From Lunularia cruciata (lineage: Eukaryota; Streptophyta; Marchantiopsida; Lunulariales; Lunulariaceae), in the NCBI GenBank assembly GCA_948567375.1, contig OX419760.1, positions 13,454,001-13,518,000 of the forward strand: DNA of 64,000 nt. Direction: 5' to 3'. Position 1 is the stretch's first letter. Each line of letters begins with the position of its first letter. Positions 7,140 through 64,000 of the stretch are shown here, piece after piece. The position numbers were made by a program, and so were the translations under genes. The notes below the pieces were generated by a model. The model made no database searches. It was not told the origin of the DNA and was given only the letters and a program-made list of their open reading frames with translations.

Positions 7140-7209
7140 TGTAACAATATGGAGTTTAACAATGTAGTTAGTAAGGCTAACGAAGTAGAGAATAAGTCAA
7201 ATTAGCCTA

Positions 7210-7563: not shown

Positions 7564-7899
7564 AGGAATGGGATGGATGGAATTTATGGACCACCAAATC
7601 CACTTCTTCCAAACCATTGGGATTTTCATGTCCAAATATTACCCAAGCATTGTTTCACACAATTCATCACCTCGTGCTTTGGGCATGATTTTATGCATAT
7701 GATCATCGTGTTTGAGGAACCCTTGATACTTCTGATTGTAACTTATGGAGAATGATGGACGTGTTGGATCTATGTGTTAATCAATTAGATAAATTGAGGG
7801 TAATGGAATAGAGTAGTAGCTATGGTAACAATACCAAGTGTTATCCTTGCAATGCAACAACAAATTGAGCATCTTACTTGATTGTTGGATGAACAAGAC

Positions 7900-8720: not shown

Positions 8721-8753
8721 CCAGTAGGAGATTTTGAGCCGTTTACTAGAAGC

Positions 8754-11700: not shown

Positions 11701-12267
11701 CTCCTCCCCCGTCTCAGGTCCCTCATACTTCAACCTTCTTGACCACCATATCCAAATCTCTCCAACAAGCCAAATCTCACCTCCTTGTTGCTCAAAATTA
11801 TCAAAAACAATATGCGGACCACCATCATCGTGATCTCACCTTTGAAGTTGGTGATAAAGTTATGCTATCCTCTAGTAATCTAGTAATTCCTCTCACTTGA
11901 TACCCAAATTTGTAAACTTGCCCCTAATTGGATAAGACCTTTTGATGTCACCCAAATTGTCCCTCTTGTTGCTTATCGACTTGCCTTGCCTTCTCATATG
12001 CGCATCCATCCTGTCTTTCATGTTTCCAAGTTGAAACCCTTTGTTCCTAACCCCTCTTCTTTTTCCTCTCAAGTCCAACCTCCTCCTCCTCCTATCCCTA
12101 TCAATGATCATGAGGAGTATGAAGTTGATTGTATCCTTGTGCATCGCCACATCCAACGAGGATGCCAACAACATATGGAGTACAAGGTCCTTTGGAAAGG
12201 GTATCCCCTTCATGATGCTACATGGGAACCTCTTTCTCACCTCCAAAATGCACAAATGACTATCTAG
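8754..12267 (+). pseudogene. Pol remnant: protease, RT, RNase H, integrase, chromodomain
   Basis: Domains in order: aspartic protease with the active triplet changed to DFG (ILVDFGSS, near 8840); RT with motif A in KLDLCSGY at about 9830 followed at once by a TAG, and the catalytic box as FLDDILIY near 10015; RNase H with VDFDAS (10450) and TDHKP (10660); integrase zinc region with CX2C near 11160, then a catalytic core. The core has lost the segment holding its first aspartate after WEHVTQ, has SNHD in place of the usual SDRD near 11410, and keeps the glutamate in GQIERAN near 11510. At least ten in-frame stops occur, many explicable as C-to-T or G-to-A changes. The C-terminal chromodomain (12118-12267) is well preserved. 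Coordinates span the whole remnant, not one reading frame. Confidence 0.9.
12118..12267 (+). pseudogene. Integrase C-terminal chromodomain
   Basis: The segment YEVDCILVHRHI...YKVLWKGYPLHDATWEP shows the chromodomain pattern: an opening beta strand, the W-K-G-Y aromatic segment and the closing WEP before a terminal helix. In chromoviruses this domain directs integration to particular chromatin, in many cases H3K9-methylated. It is one of the least damaged parts of this copy. Confidence 0.88.
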
Positions 12268-12307
12268 GAGTTTGAAGCTTCAATGGCAACGAGGACTTCA
12301 CCAACTA

Positions 12308-12325
12308 GCAAGGGGTGGGAGAACA
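12308..12325 (+). other. Polypurine tract of the chromovirus
   Basis: GCAAGGGGTGGGAGAACA lies directly before the TG of the 3' LTR at 12326, where plus-strand DNA synthesis is primed. Confidence 0.85.
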
Positions 12326-12750
12326 TGTAACAATATGGAGTTTAGCGACATAGTTAGTAAGGCTAACAAAGTAGAGAATAAGCTAAATTAGCCTAGAATA
12401 TTCTAGAAGCATCTAGGAAGCTTCTTGAGAAGCTTCCCAACTAGTTAACTTGCATCCCAAGCAGGTAGCTTCTAGATGGAAGCTTCTAGAAGCTTCTAAC
12501 TAGCTTAGCTTGCATGCCAAGTAGGTGACTTCTAAAAGGAAGCTTCTTGAGAAACTTTTTAGTTAACTTGGCTTGCACTCTAAGAAAGCGGCTTGAGGAA
12601 GCTTCTTGAGAAGCTTTTCAAGGGCTGTGTATGCTACCTATAAATACCAAAGCCAAAGTTTATGCTAGGTATTTGGAGTTTTCCTTCATTCAAGCATCCC
12701 AATGTGAGCTTCCATTCTACTATTTCTCTCCTTGGTTTGGGTCTTTTATA
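12326..12750 (+). repeat. 3' LTR of the chromovirus
   Basis: 425 bp, beginning TGTAACAATATGG and ending TTTTATA, so the terminal CA has mutated to TA. It carries a 14-bp block absent from the 5' LTR, around 12470. The heat-shock-element matches recur here: GAAtaTTCtaGAA at 12396-12408 and TTCtaGAAgcTTC at 12484-12496. The GGATC target duplication follows at 12751-12755. Confidence 0.92.
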
Positions 12751-12755
12751 GGATC
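12751..12755. repeat. Target-site duplication GGATC, right copy
   Basis: Direct repeat of 7135-7139, immediately after the 3' LTR. The R2-like sequence resumes from this point. Confidence 0.92.
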
Positions 12756-14912
12756 CCTCCTCTACTTCTACCACATAAGTCTCTAAAACCGGCCTATCAA
12801 CAACCATAAAATGAGAGGAAAGTAGGGGTGCCAAGAGAGCTCAACTACCCAAACATGCTCTAGGTGTTGTCTCCTCTATAGATAGCAAGCCAACCTCCAC
12901 ACAAGAGCGACAAAGCCATTTATCTACATGCCAAATCTCCTATCACACACTCAAAAGTCCCTAGTCCAACAATATCACCAAAGACTCCCATAATCCTCCT
13001 ATCAAAGGCTCTTAGACATGATAGGAAGGACAAGGATGGAGGAACTGTGTGATGAGGTACATTGGTTGATGAGCAATACACAAGGAGAGTATACCAAATG
13101 CCACTTGCGGATCTCCTAGTAACGGAAGGTCATCTACATGGAGAACATCCTCTACAAGAGCAACGTCTAAGAAGCATGTGACAAAATCCTTGGATCCTAC
13201 CGGCACTCCAAGAACACGTAGTCCATTTGTAGATGTGATGCACCCCTTTGGAGGCTCAACGTGGGGAGGGATATCTAAAAGGGACCATGCCTTGCACTTT
13301 GACACCTTGACTCCCAAGCCAACTAGATGTAGCTTGGTAGTAAAGTGATTGAAGGCCTGCCTAATCTGATCTACAAGGCTCATAATGTGTGTATCATCTA
13401 CCAAGGAGTGAAATACACAACTTTACATGGCCAAAGTAGTAGATAGGAGAGCTCTAAGTGAGCCATGGAAAATAAGGGTCCTCCTAAAGGATCTCCCTAA
13501 TGTGTACCAACAATTGATTCCAAGACGGTGACTCCTTCCTATGAACAACTGTGTTGGTAGTAAAGGGAAGCAGGAGAGCCTTAAAAAGACCGCACAAAAG
13601 GAATAAAACTTGCCAAGGATCTATCAACCTCCTTAAGCTCTTTAAAGATGGATGTACGTGAGATGCTATTAAAAGCATTCTCAACATCCACTTGTAGGAC
13701 GACCCACTCTGGATGGATATCTAAGAGTGTTCTAATGCCTAGAAGTATAGCCTCACATCCTCTAGGTGTAGCTATACCAAACTGATGTGGATTGAGGTGT
13801 TGTCAAAACTGAGAACGATGTTGAAGGATAATGGTATGACTGACCAAACACAAAAAGATTTCTCCAATAGTAATTGGTCTAATGCTCCATGTGTCCTTCT
13901 CCATGATGAGAAGTCTACTAGCACCTAACACCCAACAAACATAAGAATGTCTCCTCTCGCTATTGCTGCAGCCACCTGAAACGACTCGATGAAACAAGTA
14001 GAAGGATCATCTGCCTAAAAGAAATCTCTAAGGTGCTCATAAACCATCCCTAACAAGCCTCATGAGGAAAGGCAAGGGGCAATGCACAGTGCTTGTGCAA
14101 AAAGCTACTCCCTATCAAGACTTAAGGACTACTCCGATTGATAATCTAAGACCTCTAGTGGTAGCCCCTCTACTGCCATAGGATGCAGTGAGTGTAGGGA
14201 AGAGATAGTCTCATCAGTAGAACTAGCCATAGACAAAAAGGTGTAGCACTTATGCTACTCTACTAAACTCTCCCGCTTGACCAAATGTCCTACATCGTCG
14301 TAATTGAGTGGACTTTGTGGTATCCTATGGCGAAACGTATCTCCTAAAGCATGTAGCCCTAACGGACTCCTCCTGAAGGGCTGCCCAATCCTTGCTTGAA
14401 ATCAGCCAAATCTAGTAGCTCCTTCTCTATGCCCCACATGTCCCCCTCTAGCATAACGAAGACACCATCAAGGGAGTAGGAGGAATAGGAACCATGCTAA
14501 CTCGTCCAAGGGATCATGTGCCAAACGATCAAGTGGTAGGCACAAAGCCTATCTAGCCTCATCATGGAGTGTGTGGAGTAGCCTATGGAATAGACGTGGA
14601 CATGGAAATGAAACCCGCCTCAGAAGCTAACCATTTCCATGACTCGATCGGTATCCTTGGAACGGTCAATGAAGGGATAGAAGAAGCGTGCATAGTCCCG
14701 AGTGTCACTATTGTCAATGTGGTCATTTGGCTCACGTGTGCATCCCAAGTGGTCCAATCATAGTCCTTGTGCATCTTTCCCACATGAGTCTTTACCCCTT
14801 GTGAGGTAAAACATCGGTGACACACAAGGCATGGTGTATCTTGAGCTACCCTAGGCGACCTCACATGAGGAGTGTAGCTATGGCTAGCACAAAAATAACG
14901 ATAATAATACAT
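12756..14912 (-). mobile_element. R2-like non-LTR retrotransposon copy 1, 5' part
   Basis: Minus-strand continuation of the element interrupted at 7134. From 12756 to about 14190 it parallels copy 2 (36472-37886) and encodes the RT region. Near 13390 the RT catalytic box reads VDDTHIM, so it keeps both aspartates, unlike copy 2. It then extends further 5' than copy 2. Around 14770-14835 it encodes a C2H2 finger (CLVC...KTHVGKMH, spacing CX2CX11HX4H), as found at the N-terminus of R2-group proteins. Several frameshifts and stops break the frame. The exact 5' end is unclear, between about 14900 and 15000. Confidence 0.8.
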
Positions 14913-15642
14913 GATGCATTACTCCATATCTCTCCATATCAACAAAACCACAACCTCTCACATCCCAATTCACATAAGAAAATACAATCTCTCCAAACCC
15001 TAAAATCTACAAAAGTCTACAACCTCTCGTACCTTTCAAATTCTATCTTCAAAATTTTCAAACTAAATTCACCTGGAACTTAATCATGAAAACCAAGAGA
15101 TTAGAAATAAAAATTCTTGACCCATCACTCTCAATGTGTACGGTTCACTCTAAACCCTACAAAACCTTGAAAAGCAAACAGACTAAACTAGTCTATGGAA
15201 TACTATATGCTAAAGAACCCTCGGAACATAAAGATCTTTCCTCTCACATCTCTCCCCCCTCCTCTCCCATCTACACACTCTCCCGATGCCTCCCCCGATC
15301 TCTAGAGATCCGGCACACAAGAGTGGGAAATCACCCTTTTCCCATGCTACACTCTATGTAAGATCATTAAGCACATGTCCACACGTTTAACTTTATCCTA
15401 CCTGTTAAATTTATCTTGGACCATATGCAAGTCAGTCTCTGTAAATTGGTGTTGTCTACCAAACATAATAGCTCTTTCTATGTTAAACATTCTCTTTCCC
15501 ATGTTATTGTAAAAACCACCTCCTCGATGGATCAATTGTAGCAATCCTCTCTCTTCTAAACGTACAACTAAGTATATTCACACTCTTTTCATGTCAAATA
15601 TACACTCTCGCGTGCCATTACAAAAACCACGTCTCTAATAAT

Positions 15643-32019: not shown

Positions 32020-33417
32020 ATCAACTGGAAAAAAGAGTCTTTATCTTCTGTACATTTGGCTCTTGAAATCATTTTTTCAGCTCTCGGTTGTCTATCTGGT
32101 CTCCTTGAACTTTTGGCAGTAGTCACCAACTAGGGTGCCCGCATCCATCTTTCCCAGTTGATCGTTCCTAATGGCGTCATCAATCTACTACTGCAGAAGC
32201 ATCACCTGGACAGGGTTGACTGACAGACAGCGCTGAGTTGCAAGATGGCAGCATATTCTTTCCCCTCTCTTTACGAGAGGTTTCTATTCTGGTGTTACTA
32301 GTGCAGCCTCTTCCTATTGGTCACCACTTGGATTAGCCTTCGTGACTATAGCAGAGGGTCAAAATTTATTTACAGCAGCTGGTGTGTGCCAGCTAGCTAA
32401 TATGTGATGTGCAGGGGTCAGGAATGTATAAGAATCAGTGTACTTGTACATGGATCAAACTCGTGCCCTAATTGGAACATCCGATTGTGATGGTTTTGTG
32501 TGTGTGGACCCTGAGGTTCGTAGCATGCAGTTGGAAGTATTAGTTTTCGCTGCTGATGCACGCGTACTATCTATGAATAAAGAAAGGTCGCTGTACAGCA
32601 TACATACAACGATCCTCAACAGTAGCTCACGAAACCAACTTATTACCGGACTTGGCGAACTAAAGCTTCAGCAATGTTATCTTTCCCCCTTCCCAGACGC
32701 ATGTGGATAAATTCCCAAGAGTGTATTTGCTAAGGCCAAACTACACACTGGAGTCCCTTCTTATCTCAATATACAGCTCCATGATCAGGCTTTGTTAATC
32801 CGCACCTACGGCGTTTGTAGGTGAAGAAGCTAAGATCTGTAAAACCTGCTTTGGCAAGGGTGGGGTCGTGTGCCAGAAGCCCAGCACAATCCCGAAATCA
32901 CTACAATTAAACTGTCGCTGTAAGGGCCAAATCTGGAACTCTCTCTCTGGACATTCTGCACTAAACATGAAGAAGAGGACCTATGCAAAAGGGGCCTTTT
33001 ATTTGACAGCCTCACAGTCATTTTATTATTGATCGATTCGACAACAGCTCGCATACACTCTTTATCTCGAGGACTGAAGAAAGATAACTGAAATGAGGAA
33101 GACAGATGACGGTTGCGAGTACTTCCTAACAAAGACGTTATACACGATGAAAGCCCGAGCACCAGCAGGGTACTCTCCAAAGTTTCACTTTTTCTCGGTC
33201 CTATCCTGCGTCTGGGTGTGGTTTCACTTCTTGCCAGCCCGTTGGCCGCGTACGTGCCTTGTCCTCTTCACGCCCATGTCCCGTAGTGTAGAATAGATCG
33301 AGCAGGTTACTTGGACCGGGCCCCCGTCACAATTCGCAGCGAAGTGCCGGTGAAGGAAAGTCCGAACGCTGCGAAGAAGGCCTTAGGGAGACAGCGAAAA
33401 GAAGGGAAGAGGAGGAA
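32020..33417. other. Intergenic region between SEC10 and SECE1
   Basis: SEC10 3' UTR followed by about 1 kb with no recognised gene. Open frames on both strands are short and lack motifs. A GC-richer stretch at 33180-33417 is the likely SECE1 promoter and leader. Confidence 0.5.
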
Positions 33418-34134
33418 ATGGCTATGATGGAGGCCATTTCTGCTCGAAACGTGGTGAGAGTGGGAAGAATTGGAGTTGTGCTTCCTCCTGTTGTGCTAGC
33501 CCCGTCGTGTGCATACGTACATGCTGATTGCAGGAGCACAGGTTTGAGATCCGGGAAGAATGAGTGGACGGCCCTGACCTCAGACAATGGGAGAACTGAG
33601 GGCAGGAGAATCCGGTTGCTGGCGAAAAAGAGAGGGCCGTCTCGCCCCAATGGCCTTGAATCTCGCCGTTCTGTGCAGCAGGAAGAGAGGAAAGAAGATT
33701 CGGAGGGAGGCCCGAGTCCCAGTCCGAGTAATTCTGGAAGCAGTGACGAGGATTTGAGCGGAGAGGTTGTAGATGCAGAGTTTCAAACGGAAGAGACAGC
33801 TAAGGTTGATGAGAAGCCGACGACTACTACAGAGTCCCCAGATGACATAGGAAAAGGTCTGAGTGAGCTTAGGAAGGAAAGGGTTGCTTCTGGTGTTCAA
33901 GACCCTGCAAATACTACTGACTTTTGGCAGGGAGTGGCGGAAGAAACCAAGTTAATAGAATGGCCTGCTCTCCCTAAGGTTTTGGGGACAACAGGTGTAG
34001 TGGTAGCAATGATTCTTGGCTCCTCTGTTGTTCTCCTTACGGTTAATGCGATTCTGGCTGAAGGTTCCGACTTCCTGTTCACAAATCCGGCCTTTAAAGA
34101 ATTCGCAAGGGGCACCTTGAATCTCTACTGGTAG
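33418..34134 (+). CDS. SECE1: Chloroplast preprotein translocase subunit SecE (SECE1)
   Basis: A single-exon gene of 238 codons. SecE is the small essential partner of SecY in the thylakoid translocon that inserts and exports proteins together with SecA. Residues 1 to about 65 are rich in serine, arginine and small residues with few acidic ones, like a chloroplast transit peptide. A long acidic, serine-rich linker (about 85-165) is followed by the SecE core from residue 169: FWQGVAEETKLIEWPALPKV, then one membrane segment at about 188-213 (VLGTTGVVVAM...). The amphipathic helix with the conserved E-x-x-x-IEWP precedes the membrane helix exactly as in the family. Two ATGs (residues 1 and 3) could start translation. 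The chloroplast location is inferred from the leader and from similarity to plant SECE1. Confidence 0.93.
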   Translation: MAMMEAISARNVVRVGRIGVVLPPVVLAPSCAYVHADCRSTGLRSGKNEWTALTSDNGRTEGRRIRLLAKKRGPSRPNGLESRRSVQQEERKEDSEGGPSPSPSNSGSSDEDLSGEVVDAEFQTEETAKVDEKPTTTTESPDDIGKGLSELRKERVASGVQDPANTTDFWQGVAEETKLIEWPALPKVLGTTGVVVAMILGSSVVLLTVNAILAEGSDFLFTNPAFKEFARGTLNLYW

Positions 34135-35372: not shown

Positions 35373-37886
35373 GAAAAAAGGCGACCGCGTAGGAAAAATG
35401 AAGGATGGGAAGACCCCATCAAGCCGTACAAGGGAGAGACAAAAAAGGTAACATGGGGCTAAGCCCCAATAGAGTCTGTATGAGAAATCTGCCCTACCGC
35501 ACCTAAGATATCCGAGCTATGCAAGTCGTCCGGTCTATACACAACTGGAGCATCCGAAGAAACATCACCTAATGTGATTGCTCTCCTATGGATTGCACCA
35601 GCCACGGCGCTCTGTAGAGCAATGGATACACGCTGTCTAAAGTAAGCTACAAAGTATGAGAGTGAGAGTGGTACCCCTGCCGCCTAACATGATAAGCTCT
35701 CGCGCACTCCCTGACAAATGTGTCAAATGCCGTGTCCATCGCTCCATATAACTCCAAGGCTAGAGGAACAAAGAGGTGACCTCGCTGCATGCCCCTGTAC
35801 TTGGAGACCTTGCGACCTGCTGCTGCACTCGCCGCCCATCCAGGGGGATGGGTAATCACTCCCTCCGAAACTGTATCTCGCGTAGGGTCCGTCACCACGA
35901 CATCCGCTACTGTCACCTGATCATCTCGGACCAAGTATAAGTCTGCCCTGACATGTGTCGTCTGCAACGCATACGAACGCTCCCTCCAAGCCAAGTATCC
36001 ACTCTCTCGTGCCATAGCAAACACTATGTCTCTAATGGCATCATGGGTAGCTATCCTCTGTCCTCCAAAAGGACACCGTGTCATGTGGACCGCCGCTGCA
36101 TCTAGTGTAGAACCACACTCACAAGTGAGTAGTGAAGATGCAGATGGGTGGACCAAACCTAGGCGAAACCTCATCGCTGTAGAGAAAGTAGCCGGTGCGA
36201 GTCGGAAAGCCCTAATGCATGGTCGAGCTAGGATCCACGAGCCTGCACCCTTGCCGGAGCAAGAGCGTAGACGTGCTCTAGTAGCCTGAGGAATGGACGA
36301 GTCAACTAAGAGAGAATGTAGCGTATGCTCACACTGTCGCTCCATCAAGGAAGACTGTAGACCTCTAGTCCAATCTGACAATAGTGAAGCAAACGGTGGA
36401 AAACCCTCTCGTGCTCGTGGAGATAGACTATCTCTCGTTTGCCGCAATAACACCTGGAGAGAAAAGGATCCTCCCTCCACCTCTGTCACATAAGTCTCCA
36501 AAACCGGCCTATCAGCAACCACAAAACGAGATGCAAGTAGGGGTGCCGAGAGAGCCCAACTACCCAAAAACGCTATAGGTGCCATCTCCTCCATAGAAAG
36601 CAAGCCAACCCCACCACATGAGATCGGTAGAGCCGTCTGTCTACGTGCCAAATCCCCTGTCACACACTCAAAAGTCCCTGGTCCAATAATATCACCAAAG
36701 ACTCCCATAATCCTCCTATCAAATGCTCTCAGACGTGATAGGAAGGACGATGAGGGGGGAACTGTACGGATGAGGTAGGATGGTCGACGAGCAATACTGG
36801 AAGAGAGTATACCAAATGCCACCTGCGGATCTCCTAGTAATGGAAGGTCATCCACATGGAGAACATCCTCTGCAAGAGCAGCGTCCAAGAAGCGTGTGAC
36901 AAAATCCTCCGATCCTACTGGCACTCCAAGAACACAAAGTCCCTCTGTGGATGTGATACACCCCTCTGGAAGCTCAAGGTGGGGAGGGATACCTAAAGGG
37001 GACCATGCCCTACACTTTGACACCTTGACTCTCAAGCCTACTAGATGTAGCTCGGTAGTCAAAGGCCTGCCTAATCTGATCTACAGTGCCTATGATGTGT
37101 ATATAATCTGCCAAGGATGGAAATACACAACCTGGCATGGCCAAAGTAGTAGACAGGAGAGCTCTAAAGTGAGCCATGGCAAATAAGGGCCCCCCCAAAG
37201 GATCTCCCTCACGTGTACCAACAGATGACTCCAAGACGGTGACTCCCTCCTGTGAACCACCATGCTGGTAGTAAAGGGAAGCAGGAGAGCCATAAAAAGA
37301 CCGCACAAAAGGAATGAGACTCGCCAAGGATCCACCAGCCTCCCTAAGCTCTCTAAAGATGGATGCACGGGAGACGCTATTAAAAGCGTTCTCAACGTCC
37401 ACATGTAGGACGACCCACTCCGGATGGATATCTAGGAGTGCTCTAATGCCTAGAGATATAGCCTCACATTCTCCATGTGTAGCTACTCCAAACTGATGTG
37501 GACTAAGGTGCTGTCGAAAGTGAGAACGATGCTGAAGGACAATGGTACGACTGACCAAACGCAAAAAGATCTCTCCAATAGCAATCGGTCTAATGCCTCT
37601 CGTGTCCTTCTCGATCGCGAGAAGTCGACTAGCATCTAAGACCCGACTAACAGACATAGGAATATCTCCTCTCGCTACTGCTTCAGCCACCTGAAACAAC
37701 TCGGTAAAACCACTAGAAGGATCATCTGCCTGGAAGCAATCTCTAAGGTGCTCATAAACCATCCCTGACAAGCCTCCTGAGGAAATGCGAGAAGCAGTGC
37801 ACAATGCTTGTGCAAATAGCGACCTATCAAGACATAAAGGCTGCTCAGGCTAATGATCTAAGACCTCTAGTGGTAGTCCCTCTACT
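35373..37886 (-). mobile_element. R2-like non-LTR retrotransposon copy 2, 5'-truncated
   Basis: A 2.5 kb minus-strand element flanked by a perfect 12-bp duplication. The 3' end (left side) finishes in ...GGTCGCC followed by a short T run when read in the sense direction, and contains a small hairpin GGGGCTtAGCCCC near 35456. It lacks the N-terminal part present in copy 1, consistent with 5' truncation. The architecture (RT, then a CxC...HxxxC zinc motif, then a restriction-like endonuclease) is that of the R2 and related groups, not of plant L1 or RTE elements with AP endonucleases. Confidence 0.88.
35647..37804 (-). pseudogene. RT plus restriction-like endonuclease protein, frameshifted
   Basis: Read 37804 down to about 37040 and then, in another frame, from about 37060 to 35647. 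RT motif A is VDVENAFNSVSR; motif B is GTREGDPLGG. The catalytic box reads LADYIHI, so the second aspartate is lost. An 8-bp deletion relative to copy 1 near 37060 shifts the frame. After the thumb comes a zinc motif CECG...VHMTRC (C-x-C-x9-H-x3-C, about 36070-36125). The endonuclease follows: RADLYL, 12 residues, then DVVV, matching the R-x-D-x12-D pattern of restriction-like endonucleases, and downstream KVSKY. In life it nicks DNA and primes reverse transcription at the nick. This copy is inactive. Confidence 0.87.
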
Positions 37887-37898: not shown

Positions 37899-39694
37899 TG
37901 GGTAACTACTTATGCCAACTTTAGACATCATGTCATTGAGAATGATATCTGCCTAAACAAGACAATACTATCTGGTAAGTCTCACAAAAGTCAAGCACAA
38001 TGGAAAGGAAGCACGCTTGTTTTATTCCTCTTCCGCCAACATGAGAAAGGAATCTTCTCACTTGCATTGAACTCGGCATGTCAGTGATATGCATGAAGTT
38101 CCGTGCGGAGCTTCTCACATCCATCAGAGATACCAAAACTCCAAGGAGCACCAAGGAGACAAAGAGCTTATGTCACGAAGTATACGAAACATCATGTAAT
38201 GTGTTGTTTTCAAGCTACCACAACTCTTTGATCAACTAGAAGTTGATCCTATACCAGTGCATCTGTCATACCTTGAGGTGCAGATAGAGTCTCATGCATA
38301 TCGCTCGCCGCTTGCTTTGGGTAATCACCATACTGATGTATTCTGCCCGAACTACTCCGAACGAACGGGCTCAAAGCAGATTGAAACGACACACATTGGA
38401 TAACATGAAGGATGGGAAGACCCCATCAATCCGAATGACGTGGTTATAGCGTGAGCTTATGTGTGGTGTGATTATACATTTTATTGTCTGTACTAAAATG
38501 TTTTTGTCTTTCATTCGCTGATTTTATGTTTTTATTCTCTTTTCTAAATAAATATTGATATTTGATTTTCCGACGATAAAAAAACTAAATATGTGGATAT
38601 ACAACAGATATGTAAAAAAAATTGAATATGTTTATATATACATATATATTATTTTTAATTTATTTTTTGGTGTAGCCTTGGACCGCCCAGATCGCACGGG
38701 TGAGTGGCAATTGAATCTCGATTAGATCTCGCATGAATCGGCCCGTCTATCCTCTTTCAAATTGAAAAGCTAGTTCTCCTTTTGAAGCAGCTGCTCCATC
38801 TTCTAAAAGTTGTCCTTTTCTTAGTATACTATTTCAATTTTTTACTTCAGCTTTCTGATGGATAAATGTACTATTATAAGAATGTTGATATGTTATTAAA
38901 GTTAATATTTTAGCCTTTATTGCTAGGGCTTTGTTTATTTTGGTTCCTTCTGCTGTTTGAATTATTCCTCGTTAAAACACGAGGAATAATTTAAATTTTT
39001 ATCGCAGAAAAAAAATCAAAAATAAATTTATCTCACAAGGTTTTTTCTTATGGCAAAAGGAGTCAATTTGATATTTAAATGTGATGTGAAGTTATGGATA
39101 GAACTGCTCTTGAACCTGTTGCCTCGTTTACACGTGCGCCAATGCTTATCAAAATTTTATCGATTCTTCGATTCACAAATGAAAAAGGATGAAGCCTACG
39201 AGGTACAACGGGGGCTGAGCAGATTGAAACTAGCAGTGAGAGTGTTAATCCTTCTCTCGAGGCCGTGGTTCATCGACGCTCTCACTGGTGAAAAAGCGTT
39301 GACACAATCACAAGTTCCATGTTCAAAGTAGCCGCGAAGGCATCAAGCCAGTGCTGTAAGAAACGCTCAGAGGAGATCTACTGTTAGCGCCTATTTCAGT
39401 GCCGGAACTCTTGTCTGTAGCGACAAGTACTGGATTTGTTGCCTTTTTGGTCGGCGGGACCGACGGAGTGAGTAGGAGTAGATAAAGATGGGGATGACGA
39501 GGCAATAATCTTTTTTTAAATTTGGCACTAGAATGCCAAATATCGCTGATGGTACGCATGCGACGCTCGAGGGTAGTTGCACGCAAACTGTGTCTGAGAC
39601 AAAGACGCGGGGAGGAAGACGAAAGTGGAGAATCAAAGGAAAAGCTCCAGAGCACTGGAGAAGAGGGGGAGGAAGAATTGATTATACGGGTGTG
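37899..39694. other. Intergenic region upstream of the alpha-mannosidase gene
   Basis: No gene recognised. A 24-bp scrap resembling the R2-like 3' tail (AAGGATGGGAAGACCCC) lies near 38408. A perfect hairpin sits at 38961-38990. AT-rich DNA from 38480 to 39050 is followed by sequence richer in GC that probably holds the promoter and leader of the next gene. Confidence 0.5.
38961..38990. repeat. Perfect inverted repeat, 11-bp arms
   Basis: ATTATTCCTCG at 38961-38971 and its exact complement CGAGGAATAAT at 38980-38990, with an 8-bp loop. It could be a hairpin or a miniature transposon scar. No gene end lies close by, so a terminator role is not supported. Confidence 0.8.
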
Positions 39695-42600
39695 ATGGCA
39701 GCTCCGATCTGGAAAGCGGTGGTGATTTTGATCATCGGGTTGTCCATCGTGAGTGGAAGTGGAGCAGATCTGTTTGAGAAGAGCAATAAGAAGAGAAATT
39801 TTGGCCTGTGCTCGAGGAAGTCTAAGAAAGATGAAGGTGATGATGATGATGATGATGATGATGATTCTGGGTACAACACCGATGCAGGTCCAGTGCCGGA
39901 CAAGCTGAATGTGCATCTCGTCTCACACACACACGATGATGTTGGGTGGCTCAAGACTGTTGATCAGTACTATGTGGGCTCCAATGGTTCTATTCAGGTC
40001 GGACTCTTCTTTCAGAATTCCTCGAGTCACCGATAGAACTACTGCTATTCACAGGATATTCTTTTGTCTCTCTTTTGTGGGTTCAAAATTCCTTTATCTT
40101 TTGGGGTCCGCTCGTTGAAGCCCTGGTTTTAGATGACAGATTGTAGTGTACCTCACTCTCTCTAGTTAGGACATTTATCCTTTTTTGGTGGAGTTGCTTT
40201 TACGCTTAATATCAGAAACTGCTCTTGCCACTTGCTTCTTGAGGCTTTGTGGATTGTGTGGAGGAGCAGCTTTGGCTTGCAAGGGTGGATAATCCGCGTG
40301 AAGATGGCGGATTGGGTATTATGTCGATTGACACTTAGTACATGTGAACACGGATCGCTGTGTGAAGTTCAATGAAATTCAGTGGCTGTTAAGAAGAGTC
40401 CAACTGGTTCACAAAGCAGTGTAATCGATGCGTTTAAGCTCCACAGTAGTCTGCCTTTCTAGCAACACTGCCAGCAGTGGCGGAACAATGTTTTCAATAT
40501 TGATTTTTCTCTCTGCGGCTTAATGCTCATGAGAATTAAATTTCCTTTTTATTCTCTTCGGGCAGACTGCAGCAGTTCAGTACATTATCGGCTCTGTTAT
40601 CGATTCTTTGCTCAAAGATTCGAACCGCAAGTTCATTTATGTCGAACAGGTAAATAATCGGCTCTTTACTTACCTTCCCCCGTGATTTTATCAATTCTGT
40701 GCTAGCATGGTCCCAGCAGTTTTTCGCGTCTGATGAATGACGAGCTTGAATTTCACAGGCATTCTTCCAGCGCTGGTGGAGAGTGCAGAGCAAGTCCAAG
40801 CAGAAGGCAGTAAAGAAGCTGGTGAAGTCGGGTCAGCTTGAGTTCATGTGAGTCTACATTTCTACGTTTCTACCAGAGTAGGCGGTCAAGCAAATCCAAC
40901 TCGGTATGTAAAGACTAGCGTTTGTTCAAAATATGCGGAGTGACTGTGACTATGGAAATGAATGCAGCAATGGTGGATGGTGCATGCATGATGAAGCGAC
41001 CACACACTTCACCGATATGATTGATCAAACAACACTTGGACACCGGTACATCAAGAAGCAATTCAATGTTGCTCCTAGAGTTGGCTGGCAAATCGATCCT
41101 TTCGGGCATTCTGCTGTTCAAGGCTACCTCCTCGGAGCAGAGGTGCGAATGTTCGATAATCGTTAAATGATTGAGTTCACGAAGCGAGAGAAGTCTACGT
41201 GCTTATTTGGCAAATTCTAAGAGGTTGTACTGCTTCTTGTGGGCATCTTTGTGATTTCAACATAAGAGTCAAAGAAATTGTAAATGGCTAAATTATTAAG
41301 ATGGTCTATCGTTGATTTTACATGAAACACAGCTTGGTATTGCAGGTGGGTTTCGATGCATTGTTTTTTGCTCGAGCCGACTACCAAGACAAGCTCCAGC
41401 GCCAGAAAGACCGCTCGATGGAGTTCATTTGGCGGGGTTCTAAAAGTCTAGGGGCATCTGCCCAGGTAAGTAAAAGATATGGTTCCCCCAACTATGCCTG
41501 CTAGCCATTGCTGAGTTAGCTAATTGCATAGAAAGAAGTCCGGTTCACTCCTATAGAGTGAGGAGGTTCAGCAGATTTTGCACACTGGTTAAAATCCAGG
41601 TTCATTTCATCACGGCTGGTGGTTTTCCTGTACTCTCTCTAAAGTGCCTGCCTGTCCTTACGCTTCGGTTACTGCGATAATCACGTGTCTTGTTCTCTTT
41701 CAGCTCTTCGGTGGACTTCTTGCACACCACTACAATCCCCCAGAAGAATTCACCTATGACATTAAGTCAGGAGGCCCTCTAATTCAGGTATAGCTTGCTT
41801 CAGCAAGAAGTCATCATTTATTGAGAGGCATTCGAGATTACGATTGATGAGTGAGTACAAGTTGCGAAGATAAATAAGCTATTGGTTGGATGACTTTCTA
41901 TTATCACGAACTTAGGCCCGTGCCATGATCTGAGTCTCATTCTTATCGTTACACAGGACGATCCACTTTTGTATGAATACAACGTGGAAGAGCGCGTTGA
42001 GCTTTTTGTCAAACTTGTGCAAGAGCAGGTTGGTTCAAATTCTGACCATGCTTTCATAACTTAGGCGACTCTATGGGAGAACACCTTGAATTGTATTCTT
42101 TCTAGCGTTGTTTATTGACTTTTGGTCACCAATTCTGATCTGAGAGGCGATACTCCAACTGGTTCTACAGGCTATCCAATTCCGAACAAACCATATTATG
42201 TGGACCATGGGTGAGGACTTTTCCTACGAATATGCGGAGACTTGGTTCCAACAAATGGACAAGCTTATCCATTACGTCAATCTGGTACGAAGTACTTGGC
42301 TTTTGGGGTCCACTCGCATGATGGACATTGTTAGGCTGGCAGTTTTCCAGGTCTCGTGGTAGTGTAAACATCAATGCAGTATACATCCTGGTTATCGCCA
42401 GTTGAATTCCATGACTGTAATTTACCAAGCTGATTACTTGTGGCTATTTCGTTTCTATTTTACACTCATGCATCCAAGATTCTATCCCAAACTTGGTCGG
42501 ATACTAAATTGGAGCTTAATATGAGGGCTGTCAACAGACATTACTCATGGTTTGCATCGTCTTCATGCCAGGATGGGAGAGTAAACGTTTTCTATTCCAC

Positions 42601-58724: not shown

Positions 58725-58766
58725 ATGACAACAGGAAGAATGAATACTTGATTTCGAGATGATCTG

Positions 58767-58871
58767 TGTCGTGCGTATATACATCGCTACACAACATATA
58801 TCGCTGTCAACATCATACACTATAAAAGCACAACTCACACATAAGTCATACATAGACTCTAAAGTGCCACA
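58767..58871. repeat. TG...CA direct repeat, copy 1 (105 bp)
   Basis: Starts TGTCGTGCGTATATAC and ends AAGTGCCACA. It is nearly identical to 59324-59428; one difference was seen. Both start TG and end CA, as LTRs do. A TATAAAAG lies inside, reading on the plus strand. This may be a second copy of the terminal repeat of the minus-strand element, or part of a longer LTR that contains an internal duplication. Confidence 0.75.
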
Positions 58872-59323
58872 ATAATCAGATTGCTTAACATTCTCAACTC
58901 AACTCAACTCAGATCAGTACTTGATCTGTCACTCTATAAACTGCCAACAACTGGGCACTGATTACAGTCAAGCCACACCCACTCAAGCATAGAGAATCCA
59001 GGTGACGCTCGCCGGCCTCTGTCCACCATAGCCAGGAACTCAAAGGCTCAACATCAGAGAAGTGAGCTCTCTGGAGCTCACTTCGAAACTATACCCCCTG
59101 GACTCGAGCTAGCCCTGAAACCCTAACGGTCCCACTGACGGCACACTCGACGGTGCAAACGGTGCAAAGTGACGGTGGGCCCCACCGTGAAGTCAGTACC
59201 CCGAACACGAAATCTAACCGTCGGAAAGTAGTCCCTGAGAAACAGCTAGAATAACTCTAACTACCATCACTGGAACTCCAGTGTCCGAGCATCTAGATGC
59301 GGAACTACAAATGGCGTGACAGC
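58872..59323. other. Spacer between the two TG...CA repeats
   Basis: 452 bp with no coding frame recognised. It includes the near-palindrome GTGAGCTCTCTGGAGCTCAC at about 59060-59080. It is either LTR-internal sequence or a remnant of an internal domain left between two short LTRs. Confidence 0.45.
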
Positions 59324-59428
59324 TGTCGTGCGTATATACATCGCTACACAACATACATCGCTGTCAACATCATACACTATAAAAGCACAACTCACACATA
59401 AGTCATACATAGACTCTAAAGTGCCACA
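59324..59428 (-). repeat. Probable 3' LTR (or its 5' end) of the methyltransferase-bearing element
   Basis: On the minus strand it begins TGTGGCACTTTAGAG immediately after a G-rich polypurine tract, as expected for the start of a 3' LTR. It is 105 bp if the LTR ends at the CGCACGACA in the second repeat unit, or longer (to 58767) if both repeats belong to one LTR. The matching 5' LTR would lie beyond the right edge. Confidence 0.6.
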
Positions 59429-59441
59429 ATCGCCCCCCTAG
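59429..59441 (-). other. Polypurine tract of the minus-strand element
   Basis: Read on the minus strand: CTAGGGGGGCGAT, directly before the TGTGG start of the presumed LTR and about 160 bp after the Pol stop codon. Confidence 0.75.
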
Positions 59442-59597
59442 CTGGCGGTTAGGTCCCTCTAACTCCAGATAGCCATCTACTCTAAGTATATGGTATACCC
59501 TCTAATGGGCAAAGATCAGGAGGCCGGGTGTTATGGAGCCCCATCGTTAGTCGCCTGTCTGCAATCTATACCATATAAAGAATGAACTAGCTATAGA

Positions 59598-62500
59598 TCA
59601 AGTACATCTAGGACATAACCACTGTCCCTGAGGAACCACCGTGAGGGGAGGAGTCATACATGCCATATGCCATCCTCTCGAACAGCTATCACACACTAAC
59701 ATAGTAGCAGCTCCACCAGAAGAGCCACATAACATACACCTCAAGCCTGCACGTACAAGTGCCAAGCTTGGGTCCATAGTACCATCAATGTTTGGAAGGT
59801 GGCATGGCGCACAATTGCGCACATGATCCTTCCAAACAACACCATCACGTCCTTCTAACACAAGGACTCCAGATGGCAAAACCTCGCGCACTCTCAAGAT
59901 AGTGCGGCCTGTAGAAACATCAAGTGTCGTCGGTGCTGTCTGCTGTAGATATACATAGTCGCCTGGATGAAATCGACGGATCGAGGGTCTATAACCTCCT
60001 CCTCGAATGGTAGCATAGCGTAAAGTATCTCTATGCTGAGCAATCGCCAAGTTCTCGAAGGCCATCGGCATCACTCTCTGAAAGATCTCTGCCCGCTGAG
60101 AACATGCGCTCATCCATACATCAGGGTCATCCAAGTCCAAAACTACAGTAGCATCTCGACGAATGGCTGCAGGTAAATCTGGATCTCGTCCATAGAGTAG
60201 AAAGTATGGAGAGAAGGATGCTAAGGAGGCTTGCCGGCTGAACCAATAGCCCATGGCCAACCAAGGTAATTGGAGATCCCAATCTCCCAAGTGGCCTCTC
60301 TGCAAACCATACTTTCGCAATCCTCTCTTCACCGTCTGAACCACTCTCTCTGCTAAGCCATCTGCCTCAGGGTGATCTCGGGATGTAGTACGATGATCAA
60401 TCAAAGCCTTGTCACACAAGACCTGAAACTCTCCCAAGAACTCTGTACCCTGATCAGTCAAAACCTCAGCTGGTGCACCAAAATGACTAAGAACTCGATC
60501 CAGGAACGAGTAAGCTGTCCCTTCACTAGACTTGTTAGGAAGTGCCACCAACTCAATCCACTTGGAGAAGTGCTCCACCATCACCAAAACATACCGATGA
60601 TGTCTCACAATCAGCGGTAAAGGTCCGGCGAAGTCCAAACTCCAACGGTAACCCAATCCCATGATAGGTAATGGGTGTAACTGTGCCGTAGGAGCATTGA
60701 ATGATGCTCTAACTCGGTCACAAACCACACATCTGGCAACAAACTGCTGTACCTCGGTCTGCATACCGCGCCACCAATAATGACTCTGGAGTAAGCTATA
60801 TGTACGCTTTACTCCAAAATGTCCTAGCTCCTCATGAGCATGACGGACCAACTGTGGTCTCTGTGATGGAAGTGGTACTACTCGCACTCTACCATCCTCC
60901 CATACACGCAAAAGGTGTCTACCCTCCAATCTGAACCGTCTGGCCCGCTGAAGAACACGGTCTCTCTCCTTGGCCCCAACTGTGCCACCCACAACACCAG
61001 TGCGAAGATAGTCCATCACTAAGACATCATCATGAATGTCTCGCTGAACTGTACCAATATCTTCACTCTCTGGATCTGTCACCTCAATAACTCCTCCTGT
61101 ATGCGCTGAGAGAGATACCACCAAAGTCTCTGCAAATATACACAGAAAGGCCGATGCATGCCAACCTGGCACCATCTCCTCATCTGTCTCACCATGCCAA
61201 CGTGCTCCGGTCTGATCCTGTTGGCTGGGACATGGGTTTCTACTCAACCCATCTGCATCACGGTTCACCACTCCAGGTCTGTGAACAACCGTGAAATCAT
61301 ACTCCTGTAAAATCAGAGCCCATCGTGCAAGCTTCCCTGAAAGCTTGTCGGACTCCATCAACCACTTCAGCGGCTGATGATCAGTGATGAGAGTGAAGGG
61401 GTTACCAAATAGGTAACATCGGAAATGTGCTACTGCCCAAACTGCTGCCAAGCACTCTCCCTCATATGAACTATACTTTGCCTCCGCTGAATTGTTGGAG
61501 CGACTAGCATAGGCCACCACAAACTCCTTCTCCTCATCATCATGCTGGGTGAGCACCGCTCCAAGCCCCAACATACTCCAATCAGTGTGAACCTGAAATG
61601 GTCGTCCCCTGATCGGTCTCCTCAAAATAGGAGCAGATGTCAACCTCTCCTTGAGCTCTACAAAAGCTCTCTCCTGCTCATCTCCCCAACACCACTCCTG
61701 TGTAAGCTTGGTCAGCTTCGTCAAGGCCTTGGCAATGGCACTAAATCCTCTAACATAGCGGTGATAGAAGTTTGCCAACCCAAGGAATGCTCGCACTCTG
61801 CTCACATCCGTAGGCCGAGGAATACGTGCAATAGCCTCCACCTTGGTCTGCTGAACACCGAGTCCTCCGGGGTAGATAGTGTGACCCAAATACTCAACCT
61901 GCTCATGGAAGAACCTACACTTCCCAGGATGTAATTTGAGTCCATGAGATCTCAACCTCTCAAACACCTCCAACAACTGTCTCTCATGCTCCTCCACAGT
62001 AGTGCTATACACCAAAATGTCATCAATATAGCACCGAGCAAAATCCAGTCCAGCTAGGATCCTATCCATGACCCTCTGGAACTCAGCAGGAGCATTCTTC
62101 AACCCAAATGGTAAGAATCTCCACTGATATAACACATCCTTGCCGTGAGGATCAATAGCCCAAAATGCTGTCTTGGACTTATCTTCCTCCCTGATCGGCA
62201 ACTGATGATATCCCGCTCGAAGATCCAAAGTACTGAAGACCTTTGCATGCCCAATCGCATCAAAAATCTCCTCCGGTGTAGGCATGGCATACCGATCAGC
62301 CCTGGTCTGTCGGTTGATAGGACGGTAATCTCCACACATCCGCCTATCTATATAGTTGCCATGCATATCCTTCTTGGCTGGCATCACTGTCGCTGATGCA
62401 TACTCTCCATGTGAAATCTCCACCAAACCAGCCTCAAAAAGGTCACTACTCCGGCTCTGAATCAATGTCCTCTCCATCTCACTATATCGATAAGGACGTC

Positions 62501-62711
62501 GGAAAACAGGTGTGTCGCTAGTCAGCTCAATCCGTATACCAGGTCCCTTCAGAGCACCCAAATCCTTCATACTGAAGGTAAAACAACTCATGTGACTCCT
62601 CAAGAACCTCCAAACCCTCCGTCTTTCCTCTCCAGTAAGCTTGGGTCCAAGATCTGGCTCCCAAGTATCCTCTGTAACTGTAGTAGGAGTGGAAGATGTA
62701 CTGACTGGCTG
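59598..62711 (-). CDS. Pol polyprotein: RT, RNase H, integrase and C-terminal PHD finger
   Basis: 1037 codons open without interruption. No ATG occurs until 62591, 40 codons in, and the frame is continuous with the upstream methyltransferase frame apart from one UAG, which suggests expression by read-through. RT: STLDLRAGYHQL (motif A), FGLKNAPAEFQ (B), CYIDDILVYS (catalytic box). RNase H: VHTDWS, the glutamate in YEGECLAAVW, TDHQPLKWL and RDADGLSR. Integrase: zinc-binding HAHEELGHFG with CVVCDR, then catalytic D in WSLDFAGP, D in LTDQGTEF and E in LAERVVQ. After a GPY/F-like region the protein ends in a C4HC3 PHD finger. No key residue is missing. Confidence 0.95.
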   Translation of the reverse strand, partial: QPVSTSSTPTTVTEDTWEPDLGPKLTGEERRRVWRFLRSHMSCFTFSMKDLGALKGPGIRIELTSDTPVFRRPYRYSEMERTLIQSRSSDLFEAGLVEISHGEYASATVMPAKKDMHGNYIDRRMCGDYRPINRQTRADRYAMPTPEEIFDAIGHAKVFSTLDLRAGYHQLPIREEDKSKTAFWAIDPHGKDVLYQWRFLPFGLKNAPAEFQRVMDRILAGLDFARCYIDDILVYSTTVEEHERQLLEVFERLRSHGLKLHPGKCRFFHEQVEYLGHTIYPGGLGVQQTKVEAIARIPRPTDVSRVRAFLGLANFYHRYVRGFSAIAKALTKLTKLTQEWCWGDEQERAFVELKERLTSAPILRRPIRGRPFQVHTDWSMLGLGAVLTQHDDEEKEFVVAYASRSNNSAEAKYSSYEGECLAAVWAVAHFRCYLFGNPFTLITDHQPLKWLMESDKLSGKLARWALILQEYDFTVVHRPGVVNRDADGLSRNPCPSQQDQTGARWHGETDEEMVPGWHASAFLCIFAETLVVSLSAHTGGVIEVTDPESEDIGTVQRDIHDDVLVMDYLRTGVVGGTVGAKERDRVLQRARRFRLEGRHLLRVWEDGRVRVVPLPSQRPQLVRHAHEELGHFGVKRTYSLLQSHYWWRGMQTEVQQFVARCVVCDRVRASFNAPTAQLHPLPIMGLGYRWSLDFAGPLPLIVRHHRYVLVMVEHFSKWIELVALPNKSSEGTAYSFLDRVLSHFGAPAEVLTDQGTEFLGEFQVLCDKALIDHRTTSRDHPEADGLAERVVQTVKRGLRKYGLQRGHLGDWDLQLPWLAMGYWFSRQASLASFSPYFLLYGRDPDLPAAIRRDATVVLDLDDPDVWMSACSQRAEIFQRVMPMAFENLAIAQHRDTLRYATIRGGGYRPSIRRFHPGDYVYLQQTAPTTLDVSTGRTILRVREVLPSGVLVLEGRDGVVWKDHVRNCAPCHLPNIDGTMDPSLALVRAGLRCMLCGSSGGAATMLVCDSCSRGWHMACMTPPLTVVPQGQWLCPRCT
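59601..59747 (-). other. PHD finger at the integrase C-terminus
   Basis: The last 49 or so codons of Pol read CMLCG..., then CDSCSRGWHMAC and finally WLCPRC: C-x2-C, C-x2-C, H-x2-C, C-x2-C with the aromatic residue two before the last cysteine pair (W-x-C-P-x-C). This is the classic PHD pattern. PHD fingers read the H3 tail, often H3K4 methylation state. In chromoviruses a chromodomain normally occupies this position. Confidence 0.9.
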
Positions 62712-62714
62712 CTA
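62706..62714 (-). promoter_or_regulatory. UAG stop with CARYYA read-through context
   Basis: Read on the minus strand, the only stop between the upstream frame and Pol is TAG followed by CAGCCA. CARYYA directly after UAG is the known type I stop-codon read-through signal of plant RNA viruses. Both sides are in the same frame (GTA TAG CAG CCA). Confidence 0.7.
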
Positions 62715-63317
62715 TACTGGGCCCTTGGGAGCAATGGTGTCATGCTCCCGACCACTAGAGGTCCCAACCTCTGTGTGAAAAACTCCCTCCACTCTGGCTG
62801 CAAGCTCCATACGTCCTCTGGCTGCATCCCATGTGGACCAAGGGTGTAATCCAAGTAGCCCACGCTCACCTGGATGGACTCCAAGTAGACCACTCTCCCT
62901 AGTAGCTACTGGATGTGTCCCAAGAATACCATGTCCACTCGGTCCATCGCCCCCAGCATGTGCCTGAATCGTCTCGATAGGCACAGGGCTCACAAGTGTC
63001 CGAGTGGTGATGCCTATCAAGCGCATCCTACGCTGCTCTGCCAAACCAAGGCTCACAATCCAGGTCAAACAGTTCAGGTCCATAGCCTGACCTAACACCT
63101 GACGCCTGGATGCCTCTGACACTGCTGGAACAGCGGTAATACCGGTGCAAAAACCCATCGCCCGCTCTCTCTCATCAGCATTGGGCTCCACCAACTGCTG
63201 TAACTGTGAGTCCCAAACAAGTCGAGGTCCTCCCTCTCGAAAAGCATGAGAGCCTGGGAAACTCATGAGTGTGGGAAATGCAGCTCTAGGCTGTCCAACT
63301 AGGTTCACCACTGCCAT
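62712..63317 (-). CDS. C-terminal part of the cytosine methyltransferase plus linker
   Basis: 201 codons from an ATG in a strong context (ACCATGG) to the UAG before Pol. Residues 40-90 carry the last methyltransferase motifs: ADERERAMGFCTGIT (motif IX region, with E-R-x-x-MGF) and SRRQVLGQAMDLNCL (motif X), as at the C-terminus of DNMT3-like enzymes. After about residue 110 comes a Gly/His-rich linker with repeated GLLGxHP or GILGTHP units, then a charged tail. The frame overlaps the preceding one by 13 bp in a different phase. The two frames together hold one methyltransferase, so expression needs a frameshift or reinitiation unless this copy is mutated. It could also be a fold assembled from two chains. 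Confidence 0.8.
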   Translation of the reverse strand: MAVVNLVGQPRAAFPTLMSFPGSHAFREGGPRLVWDSQLQQLVEPNADERERAMGFCTGITAVPAVSEASRRQVLGQAMDLNCLTWIVSLGLAEQRRMRLIGITTRTLVSPVPIETIQAHAGGDGPSGHGILGTHPVATRESGLLGVHPGERGLLGLHPWSTWDAARGRMELAARVEGVFHTEVGTSSGREHDTIAPKGPV

Positions 63318-64000
63318 GGTGACCTATCAGCCACTACCACTGTCTGAGACTGACGCCCAACATCCAAGATATCATCAACAAGAATGTGGTCCAGTCGCTG
63401 AATCCCATCATAAGCACGTTGTAGAACCTCTCTGGGTAAGAGGTTTGTCCACCAAAGACGAAGACGATGAGCCCGTGATCCCACTCTGGCTGCATCTAAC
63501 AATACAGCAGGTCCCATCCATGAATGGACCTGATGTGTACTCGCCACCACTCTAGTGCGAGAATCACCCATCAATGGAACGTTCTCCAAAAGGTAAGCTG
63601 GAGAAACAGACTGATGAACCTGGAGATGTCGTAGTATCCGTAACATCTCCCAAAACACACCAGAACGAGGATCCTGAAGACCCAAACCGCGGCCCGCACG
63701 TGTATGTCCCTGACATGGCCATCCAGAAATCACCAAGTGAACAGGCCCATGTCTCTCTAGGTCATGCGCCCCCAGTAAGGAAATGTCTCCTGGTAAGGCC
63801 TTTTGGTAACCTCTGACTGCTGACATCGGTAATAACTCCGGATACCGATAGGCCAAGTGTGCCACATGATGTAGAGAGACTCGCCTAGCAGTCTCATCTC
63901 TCTCTACATACAAGTACCTCTGTACTCGGATACCCGCCTGTAATACCGCAGCTAGTCCGGTGCTGATCCCACCAAACAACTCCAATAGGCATATCCCCTC
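63305..64000 (-). CDS. C5 cytosine DNA methyltransferase, catalytic part (cut by window edge)
   Basis: Open from the right edge to a stop at 63305; 231 codons, start not in view. Motif I: LLELFGGISTGLAAVL (S-adenosylmethionine binding, F-x-G-x-x-T/S-G). Motif II-like acidic turn: YVERDETAR. Motif IV: VISGWPCQGHTRAG, with the catalytic cysteine in PCQG. Motif VI: YLLENVPL with the ENV triad. Motif VIII: AHRLRLWWTNLLP, close to the RxRxxWGNLP form of DNMT3 enzymes. The order I-IV-VI-VIII-IX-X is canonical, so this is not a rearranged DRM-type enzyme. It would transfer a methyl group to C5 of cytosine in DNA. Its place directly upstream of Pol on the same strand and its fusion in frame through the linker show that the retroelement owns it. 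Confidence 0.93.
   Translation of the reverse strand, partial: EGICLLELFGGISTGLAAVLQAGIRVQRYLYVERDETARRVSLHHVAHLAYRYPELLPMSAVRGYQKALPGDISLLGAHDLERHGPVHLVISGWPCQGHTRAGRGLGLQDPRSGVFWEMLRILRHLQVHQSVSPAYLLENVPLMGDSRTRVVASTHQVHSWMGPAVLLDAARVGSRAHRLRLWWTNLLPREVLQRAYDGIQRLDHILVDDILDVGRQSQTVVVADRSPWQW

Follow-up and report, generated by a model that had tools for sequence, protein, structure and literature searches.

At the high-coordinate end of a 64,000-nt stretch of the Lunularia cruciata genome (contig OX419760.1, positions 13,454,001 to 13,518,000; hereafter the window) lies part of a Ty3/gypsy retrotransposon that carries its own DNMT3-type cytosine DNA methyltransferase. Our reading, to which we give a probability of roughly 0.6, is that the element represents an old Ty3/gypsy lineage with the methyltransferase in the open reading frame (ORF) for Gag and protease, that a leaky stop codon separates this frame from pol, that the enzyme would methylate the element's cDNA before integration, and that a PHD finger would serve in targeting. 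The reading starts from observed domains, frames, stop context, repeats, conservation and co-divergence, with Gag and protease seen in relatives only. Retrotransposon-borne DNMT3 enzymes have already been published; the literature searched did not contain the bryophyte range, the placement in the Gag ORF ahead of a leaky stop, the PHD finger linked to the integrase, or a second domain layout.

Results

The window holds the 3' 5.2 kb of the element, on the minus strand, and the 5' half lies largely beyond the window edge (5234 nt present, compared with 9158 nt in the relative L081 described below). Its features, all on the minus strand, are:

58767-64000, minus: partial Ty3/gypsy element, 5234 nt
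63305-64000, minus: methyltransferase piece 1, DNMT3-type, motifs I-VIII, 231 amino acids (aa), running off the window edge on its 5' side (ORF, Pfam, PDB)
63979-63956, minus: LFGGISTG, motif I
63721-63707, minus: WPCQG, motif IV (Cys codon 63715-63713)
63592-63578, minus: LLENV
63469-63443, minus: HRLRLWWTN, motif VIII
63305-63323, minus: overlap of the two ORFs, where the window copy shifts frame by one nucleotide (ORFs, alignment to relatives)
62712-63323, minus: methyltransferase piece 2 (motifs IX/X) and C-terminal tail of ORF1, in a different frame from piece 1 (ORF)
63173-63150, minus: ERERAMGF, in piece 2 (motifs IX/X)
63107-63081, minus: RRQVLGQAM, in piece 2 (motifs IX/X)
62706-62714, minus: TAG CAG CCA (TAG 62714-62712), in-frame amber stop in UAG-CAR-YYA context between ORF1 and pol
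59598-62711, minus: pol ORF, 1037 aa, with reverse transcriptase (RT), RNase H, integrase and PHD (ORF, Pfam)
61875-62342, minus: RT, RVT_1, YIDD present (Pfam 9.7e-32)
61299-61604, minus: RNase H domain (Pfam 2.6e-36)
60369-60866, minus: integrase zinc-binding domain and rve core (Pfam 1.5e-18, 1.1e-12)
59604-59738, minus: PHD finger, C terminus of pol (Pfam 1.9e-10)
59431-59441, minus: polypurine-tract-like CTAGGGGGGCG, directly before B1
59324-59430, minus: repeat B1, 107 nt
59315-59330, minus: B-A junction CACGACAGCTGTCACG holding the palindrome GACAGCTGTC; 16-mer identical in L081
58874-59323, minus: segment A2, 450 nt, between the B copies
58767-58873, minus: repeat B2, 107 nt, with a single mismatch relative to B1; the element probably ends here on the right

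As the first-pass annotation of this DNA had described, the named methyltransferase motifs are all present in canonical order on the minus strand, and an intact RT-RNase H-integrase follows downstream on the same strand in an open 1037-aa frame. The order RT, RNase H, integrase is that of gypsy elements, and the integrase core in pol is of the rve type and not a tyrosine recombinase, which sets the element apart from DIRS (Pfam). Gag and protease lie beyond the window; zinc-knuckle and protease motifs occur in L081 and other relatives, the Pfam protease match being below cut-off (L081, P0016). No tRNAs or Rfam families were found in the window.

Searching with a methyltransferase profile, one of the checks that had been proposed, matched PF00145 to the 231-aa piece 1 with E=3e-8, and the closest solved structures in a PDB search were DNMT3A chains (E=2.8e-10); the match is therefore not due to chance. 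Identity of piece 1 to Marchantia proteins reaches 74%. Motifs I, IV, VI, VIII, IX and X are unpermuted and include the catalytic Cys, although in the window copy they are spread over two frames. DNMT3 is nearer than DRM, DNMT1, DNMT2 or bacterial enzymes, and the DNMT3-like assignment made at first pass is borne out by the best sequence and fold matches and by the motif VIII form AHRxR.xW.N. These traits, with the unpermuted motifs, are shared with the catalytic domain of DNMT3A/DNMT3B; the element enzymes differ in motif IV (WPCQG or WECQD, versus PCND in DNMT3), and identity in the structural alignment is ~25%. Pfam revealed no PWWP or ADD domain in the same polypeptide as the element methyltransferase.

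L081 was the sole relative among 44 pattern matches in genome contigs. Its contig of 9285 bp repeats 127 nt exactly at its ends and thus describes a circle of 9158 bp, which could exist as extrachromosomal DNA or could result from repeats collapsed during assembly. ORF1 (1346 aa) contains zinc knuckles, one canonical and one looser (CX2CX4HX6C), a protease-like DSGA region and the methyltransferase; pol spans RT to PHD, the latter recognised by alignment, and is 65% identical to the window pol. With a methyltransferase ~50% identical to that of the window, L081 is a distant relative. The contig is labelled as a cyanobacterial metagenome-assembled genome (MAG), and the protein P0033 is labelled Obscuribacterales; a gypsy element under a cyanobacterial label is presumably eukaryotic carry-over.

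A first protein search returned 26 proteins: 15 are named Marchantia polymorpha, 9 have no species name of this kind, and the others come from Sphagnum fallax and a Closterium. As the MARPO and Mp_ series could refer to identical loci, some of the 15 Marchantia polymorpha records may be counted twice. A profile search, which scored only the 8000 candidates with the most shared words, found 372 proteins with E no higher than 1e-3, the best 120 of the 372 being listed. Among the matches listed are named proteins of Calypogeia fissa, Marchantia paleacea and Sphagnum troendelagicum, all three methyltransferase-only, for which the tree suggests a retroelement context. The methyltransferase is joined to gag, protease or pol parts in proteins of Marchantia polymorpha, Sphagnum fallax, Closterium and metagenomes. 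In a tree of 96 of 146 proteins (those covering at least 240 of 337 columns) together with L081 and window piece 1, the latter falls within a set of 27 rows (SH-aLRT 99) that holds the tree's named bryophyte rows (Marchantia, Calypogeia, Sphagnum).

The relatives display two domain layouts. RT follows the methyltransferase in the window element, L081, P0004, P0007, P0008, P0013, P0023 and the Closterium protein P0025 (layout 1); other bryophyte proteins and P0016 stop short of RT, and in these protease- or knuckle-like motifs precede the methyltransferase. In six metagenome proteins (P0017, P0019, P0020, P0021, P0022, P0024) the methyltransferase comes after RNase H (layout 2) and, in the five of the six that reach the integrase, before it. 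One further metagenome protein, P0018, combines methyltransferase, G-patch (404-438), integrase and PHD. An RT match in P0003 (900-1011) that overlaps the methyltransferase was taken as spurious. In a motif alignment that took in 12 of the 26 proteins, motif IV reads WPCQ mostly in layout 1 and WECQ mostly in layout 2, with P0019 and P0025 as exceptions (WECQ or FECQ in P0017, P0018, P0020-P0022, P0024 and P0025); across the larger alignment the residue before the catalytic Cys is Pro in most rows and Glu in 20/124. The notion that WECQ marks a single clade with a single layout was rejected, as the tree needs 5 label changes and has weak deep forks, and P0019 joins WPCQ to layout 2. What we claim is two layouts, not two clean clades.

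The PHD finger noted at first pass is a Pfam match at the pol C terminus. It occurs in P0018, P0020, P0021, P0022 and P0024 as well as in the window element and L081, and is therefore common to both layouts. The closest solved PHDs to that of the window are those of CHD4, KMT2D, MLL3, PHF12 and DPF3; several PHDs of that group read H3 tails unmethylated at K4.

Conservation indicates that the enzyme is under constraint. In the alignment of the 146 proteins and the two window pieces, the catalytic Cys is kept in 120/124 rows covering the position, the Glu of ENV in 135/145 and the motif VIII Arg in 136/144, counts to be read with some caution since rows were gathered by likeness to motif-bearing members and decayed copies are under-sampled. 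Loss of the cysteine in most copies, named at first pass as an outcome that would refute the proposal, is not what these relatives display. Between the window element and L081, codon positions 1/2/3 differ by 0.43/0.31/0.64 in piece 1, 0.31/0.24/0.58 in piece 2 and 0.34/0.22/0.61 in pol, and amino-acid identity is 0.49 and 0.61 in the two methyltransferase pieces, 0.68 in RT and 0.73 in the integrase; selection has therefore preserved the methyltransferase, though under weaker constraint than RT or integrase. Moreover, methyltransferase identity tracks RT-RNase H identity across 11 elements (55 pairs, Pearson 0.82, Spearman 0.60, Mantel 0/5000), which argues that the enzyme has long been resident in the element.

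The window copy itself is damaged. In 13 of the 26 first-search proteins (P0001-P0005, P0007, P0008, P0010, P0012-P0016) piece 1 passes into piece 2 on directly adjacent residues, as in P0002, where the one ends at 1106 and the other starts at 1107; the remaining 13 have small offsets, gaps, or a match to one piece only. The methyltransferase of L081 is unbroken at the DNA level across the corresponding site. Consequently, the one-nucleotide change at 63305-63323 is a lesion of this copy or a sequencing error. A programmed -1 frameshift within the methyltransferase was rejected, because neither the L081 DNA nor the 13 proteins need one. Unless the break is a sequencing error, neither the enzyme nor an ORF1-Pol fusion could come from this copy; judged from the sequences of these relatives, intact methyltransferase copies do exist elsewhere. 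The reading frame shared with pol that was first reported thus holds for the motif IX/X piece, though an in-frame TAG intervenes, and fails for motifs I-VIII, which lie in another frame.

That TAG stands in a context known for readthrough. UAG-CAR-YYA separates two in-phase open frames in both elements (TAG CAG CCA in the window, TAG CAA TCA in L081), and its presence in two such distant elements strengthens the read-through idea raised at first pass. The CAR YYA hexamer after UAG is described as essential for tobamovirus readthrough in plants, where the tobacco mosaic virus stop region gave 32% readthrough in planta (PMC2754532); the same consensus appears in PMC2194720, which also mentions two retroelements, SIRE1 and Tca2, that have a stop codon in frame. 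The element shares UAG followed by CAR YYA with tobamovirus type I readthrough, but its predicted site separates Gag-protease-methyltransferase from a retrotransposon Pol. From base composition the chance of each context match is ~0.0012; the CAR-YYA pair among sense codons was counted at 3/1036, 4/1161 and 4/1046, and neither stop at the end of pol, in the window or in L081, fits it. Across the whole window TAGCARYYA occurs 3 times versus 4.7 expected. Since the motif is not enriched, what counts is where it lies: both elements have it in frame between two long ORFs.

ORF1 ends 110 residues after motif X in L081 and 121 in the window; among six unfused relatives the protein ends after 88-98 residues in five and after 30 in P0012. 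Six fused bryophyte gene models (P0004, P0007, P0008, P0010, P0013, P0023) lack the stop-bearing stretch, which we read as predicted introns, and the Closterium protein P0025 may have no stop at the junction. The methyltransferase is accordingly encoded in the Gag-protease ORF before the stop, and pol would be expressed by readthrough. The enzyme does not belong to the Pol product: in L081 and the relatives it lies upstream of the stop, in the Gag-protease ORF.

The 3' end carries a split repeat. A counterpart of the window's polypurine tract, CTAGGGGGGGC, precedes the B of L081, which is homologous to the window B; L081 has one B and one A. The window B2 ends in ACGACA and is followed by different sequence. 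We read the end layout as A-coding-B-A-B with termini TGTC...GACA, the left A lying beyond the window. If B1 and B2 start out identical at insertion, in the manner of long terminal repeats (LTRs), their one mismatch in 107 suggests a young insertion. As single-stranded DNA, the B-A-B end (58760-59440, minus) folds better than 20 dinucleotide shuffles (z -4.2). It is conceivable, if unlikely, that B-A-B instead stems from a short insertion of LTR type or from part of a nested LTR: B starts with ATTGTGGCAC and ends in ACGACA, so that it holds a TG...CA stretch and might on its own make up a short LTR, the 5' A copy falls outside the window, and L081 on its own also fits a conventional one-LTR circle. 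However, in the distant L081 the polypurine tract is likewise followed directly by a homologous B with an identical 16-nt B-A junction, and KnitGypsy-Dnmt3 is described with DIRS-like repeats (PMC5890265).

Discussion

According to our reading, ORF1 would yield Gag, protease and methyltransferase at a high level and end at the leaky UAG-CAR-YYA, which a minority of ribosomes would pass to produce RT, RNase H, integrase and PHD. Made at the level of Gag, the methyltransferase would most likely be packaged in the particle at higher numbers than RT and would there methylate the element's own cDNA ahead of integration, while the PHD behind the integrase probably recognises histone H3 tails at the target and may steer integration. 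Readthrough in vivo, packaging, cDNA methylation and PHD targeting are the steps that we infer. Methylation of cDNA before integration has been proposed by de Mendoza et al. for their DIRS elements (PMC5890265), and this gypsy element would likely methylate its own cDNA too.

Several observations weigh against this reading. The methyltransferase of the window copy is frame-broken, the gene models P0007, P0013 and P0023 have no motif IV, and the readthrough context is known at the DNA level from two elements only. The KnitGypsy DNMT was inactive in yeast, a result its authors call inconclusive (PMC5890265). Moreover, the observed/expected CpG ratio is 0.54 in the element, slightly below the 0.65 of the rest of the window, and in the stretch at 5-15 kb it is 0.26-0.29, well below that of the element; with the element near the window level and this stretch far lower, no scar of self-methylation stands out, and CpG depletion was dropped as a sign of it.

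A stronger version holds that the methyltransferase is a near-structural part of the particle by way of the shared leaky-stop design and premarks the cDNA, that the PHD picks the chromatin, and that the hosts may have no other DNMT3. We offer this tentatively and would not expect it to hold in full. If it were true, the reader and the writer of DNMT3-type silencing would be divided between the two products of one retrotransposon.

Alternatively, the enzyme could act not on its own cDNA but on the host genome or its silencing, at insertion sites or as a DNMT3 supply to a host without a canonical one. We consider this improbable. Marchantia polymorpha is reported to have five methyltransferases of the classes MET, CMT and DRM, with no DNMT3 in the main text of that report (PMC5784723), so that any DNMT3-type enzymes it has might all come from element copies; the 15 protein records from this species contain all or a portion of the domain, although a single locus may appear under both annotation versions, and a PHD linked to the integrase could guide the methyltransferase to chromatin. 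Yet the PHD belongs to the readthrough product and the methyltransferase to the main product, and the methylome of Klebsormidium nitens, a host of similar elements, resembles those of land plants (PMC5890265). A review of Physcomitrella and Marchantia mentions two DNMT3-type enzymes for CHH methylation, which may refer to the moss alone (PMC8566409), so the host may have a DNMT3 of its own.

There is rather little to recommend the view that the fold is retained for a Gag-like role in binding RNA or cDNA, with catalysis secondary. The location in the Gag ORF and the Glu in place of Pro before the motif IV Cys in 20/124 rows would suit it, but the retention of the Cys, the ENV Glu and the motif VIII Arg exceeds the needs of binding alone. 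Finally, that a host DNMT gene or fragment lies beside a retrotransposon by chance, as piece 1 being out of frame with pol in the window might suggest, can be dismissed as next to impossible, since relatives from several sources join the methyltransferase to gag, protease or RT in one polyprotein, L081 is one complete element with a methyltransferase, and methyltransferase and RT co-diverge; the initial view of the enzyme as retrotransposon-borne, not a neighbouring host gene, stands.

The captured methyltransferases of a dinoflagellate and a charophyte mentioned at first pass are indeed published, as the Symbio elements and KnitGypsy-Dnmt3 (PMC5890265). The latter, from Klebsormidium nitens, is described as having a gypsy pol and a DNMT3-type methyltransferase with conserved catalytic residues, no introns seen, purifying selection and DIRS-type repeats in the order A-coding-B-A-B (PMC5890265). 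The window element resembles its published description in being a gypsy element with a DNMT3-type methyltransferase in its coding region, in its conserved catalytic residues, in showing no introns and in the B-A-B of its 3' end (left A beyond the window), and differs in that the KnitGypsy methyltransferase is in the Pol ORF whereas that of the window family is in the Gag-protease ORF before the stop. PHD, Marchantia and moss are absent from the main text of that paper. SymbioDIRS-Dnmt3, whose enzymes methylate CG in yeast, and SymbioLINE-Dnmt are dinoflagellate retroelements that, like the window element, have a built-in cytosine methyltransferase, but on a DIRS (tyrosine recombinase) or LINE backbone in contrast to gypsy with a DDE integrase (PMC5890265). 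DNMT3s embedded in streptophyte and dinoflagellate retrotransposons are also noted in PMC12344493.

Among the search results listed, the titles and abstract openings of the open-access literature surveyed contained no bryophyte DNMT-bearing retrotransposon and no DNMT-carrying gypsy element with a PHD, and neither the Gag-ORF placement with a leaky stop nor the layout after RNase H was found in the literature searched. Chromoviruses are Ty3/gypsy elements with a chromodomain behind the integrase; the window element likewise has a chromatin-reader module there, a PHD finger instead of a chromodomain.

Why a parasite carries the enzyme that its hosts use to silence parasites is an open question, and this family makes it testable in the tractable Marchantia polymorpha. 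Placement in the Gag ORF before a leaky stop predicts particles that contain more methyltransferase than RT. For annotation, PF00145 matches in bryophytes and MAGs can be retrotransposons, and carry-over of these into MAGs may yield false bacterial DNMT annotations.

Other searches and features of the window

Viral contigs contained no DNA relatives of the methyltransferase ORF or of pol. An alignment search of these contigs kept 80 loci of 109 matches with best-segment identities of 22-48%, which we take for phage methyltransferases. Three plasmid records, two of them labelled Bacillus and the third Wolbachia, matched pol with 25-33% identity.

Elsewhere in the window, a chloroplast-type SecE gene (33292-34134, plus) has its closest counterparts in Marchantia paleacea (70%) and Riccia fluitans (67%) and thus points to a thalloid liverwort as host; the 48 SecE matches, P0147-P0194, were kept out of the element analysis. 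The CpG ratio of 0.26-0.29 at 5000-15000 compares with 0.67-0.83 in the other 5-kb pieces examined; inspection by eye shows two ORFs in this region, one gypsy-like (8955-9848) and one integrase-like (11457-11900), with no Pfam match at 1e-3. A LINE-like reverse transcriptase lies at 35647-37849, minus (RVT_1 4.7e-8 at 37013-37849, continuing in an overlapping frame), and a similar piece was recognised by eye, without a Pfam match, at 13012-13422. At 39509-40036, plus, a gene for a family-38 glycosyl hydrolase (alpha-mannosidase-like) begins.
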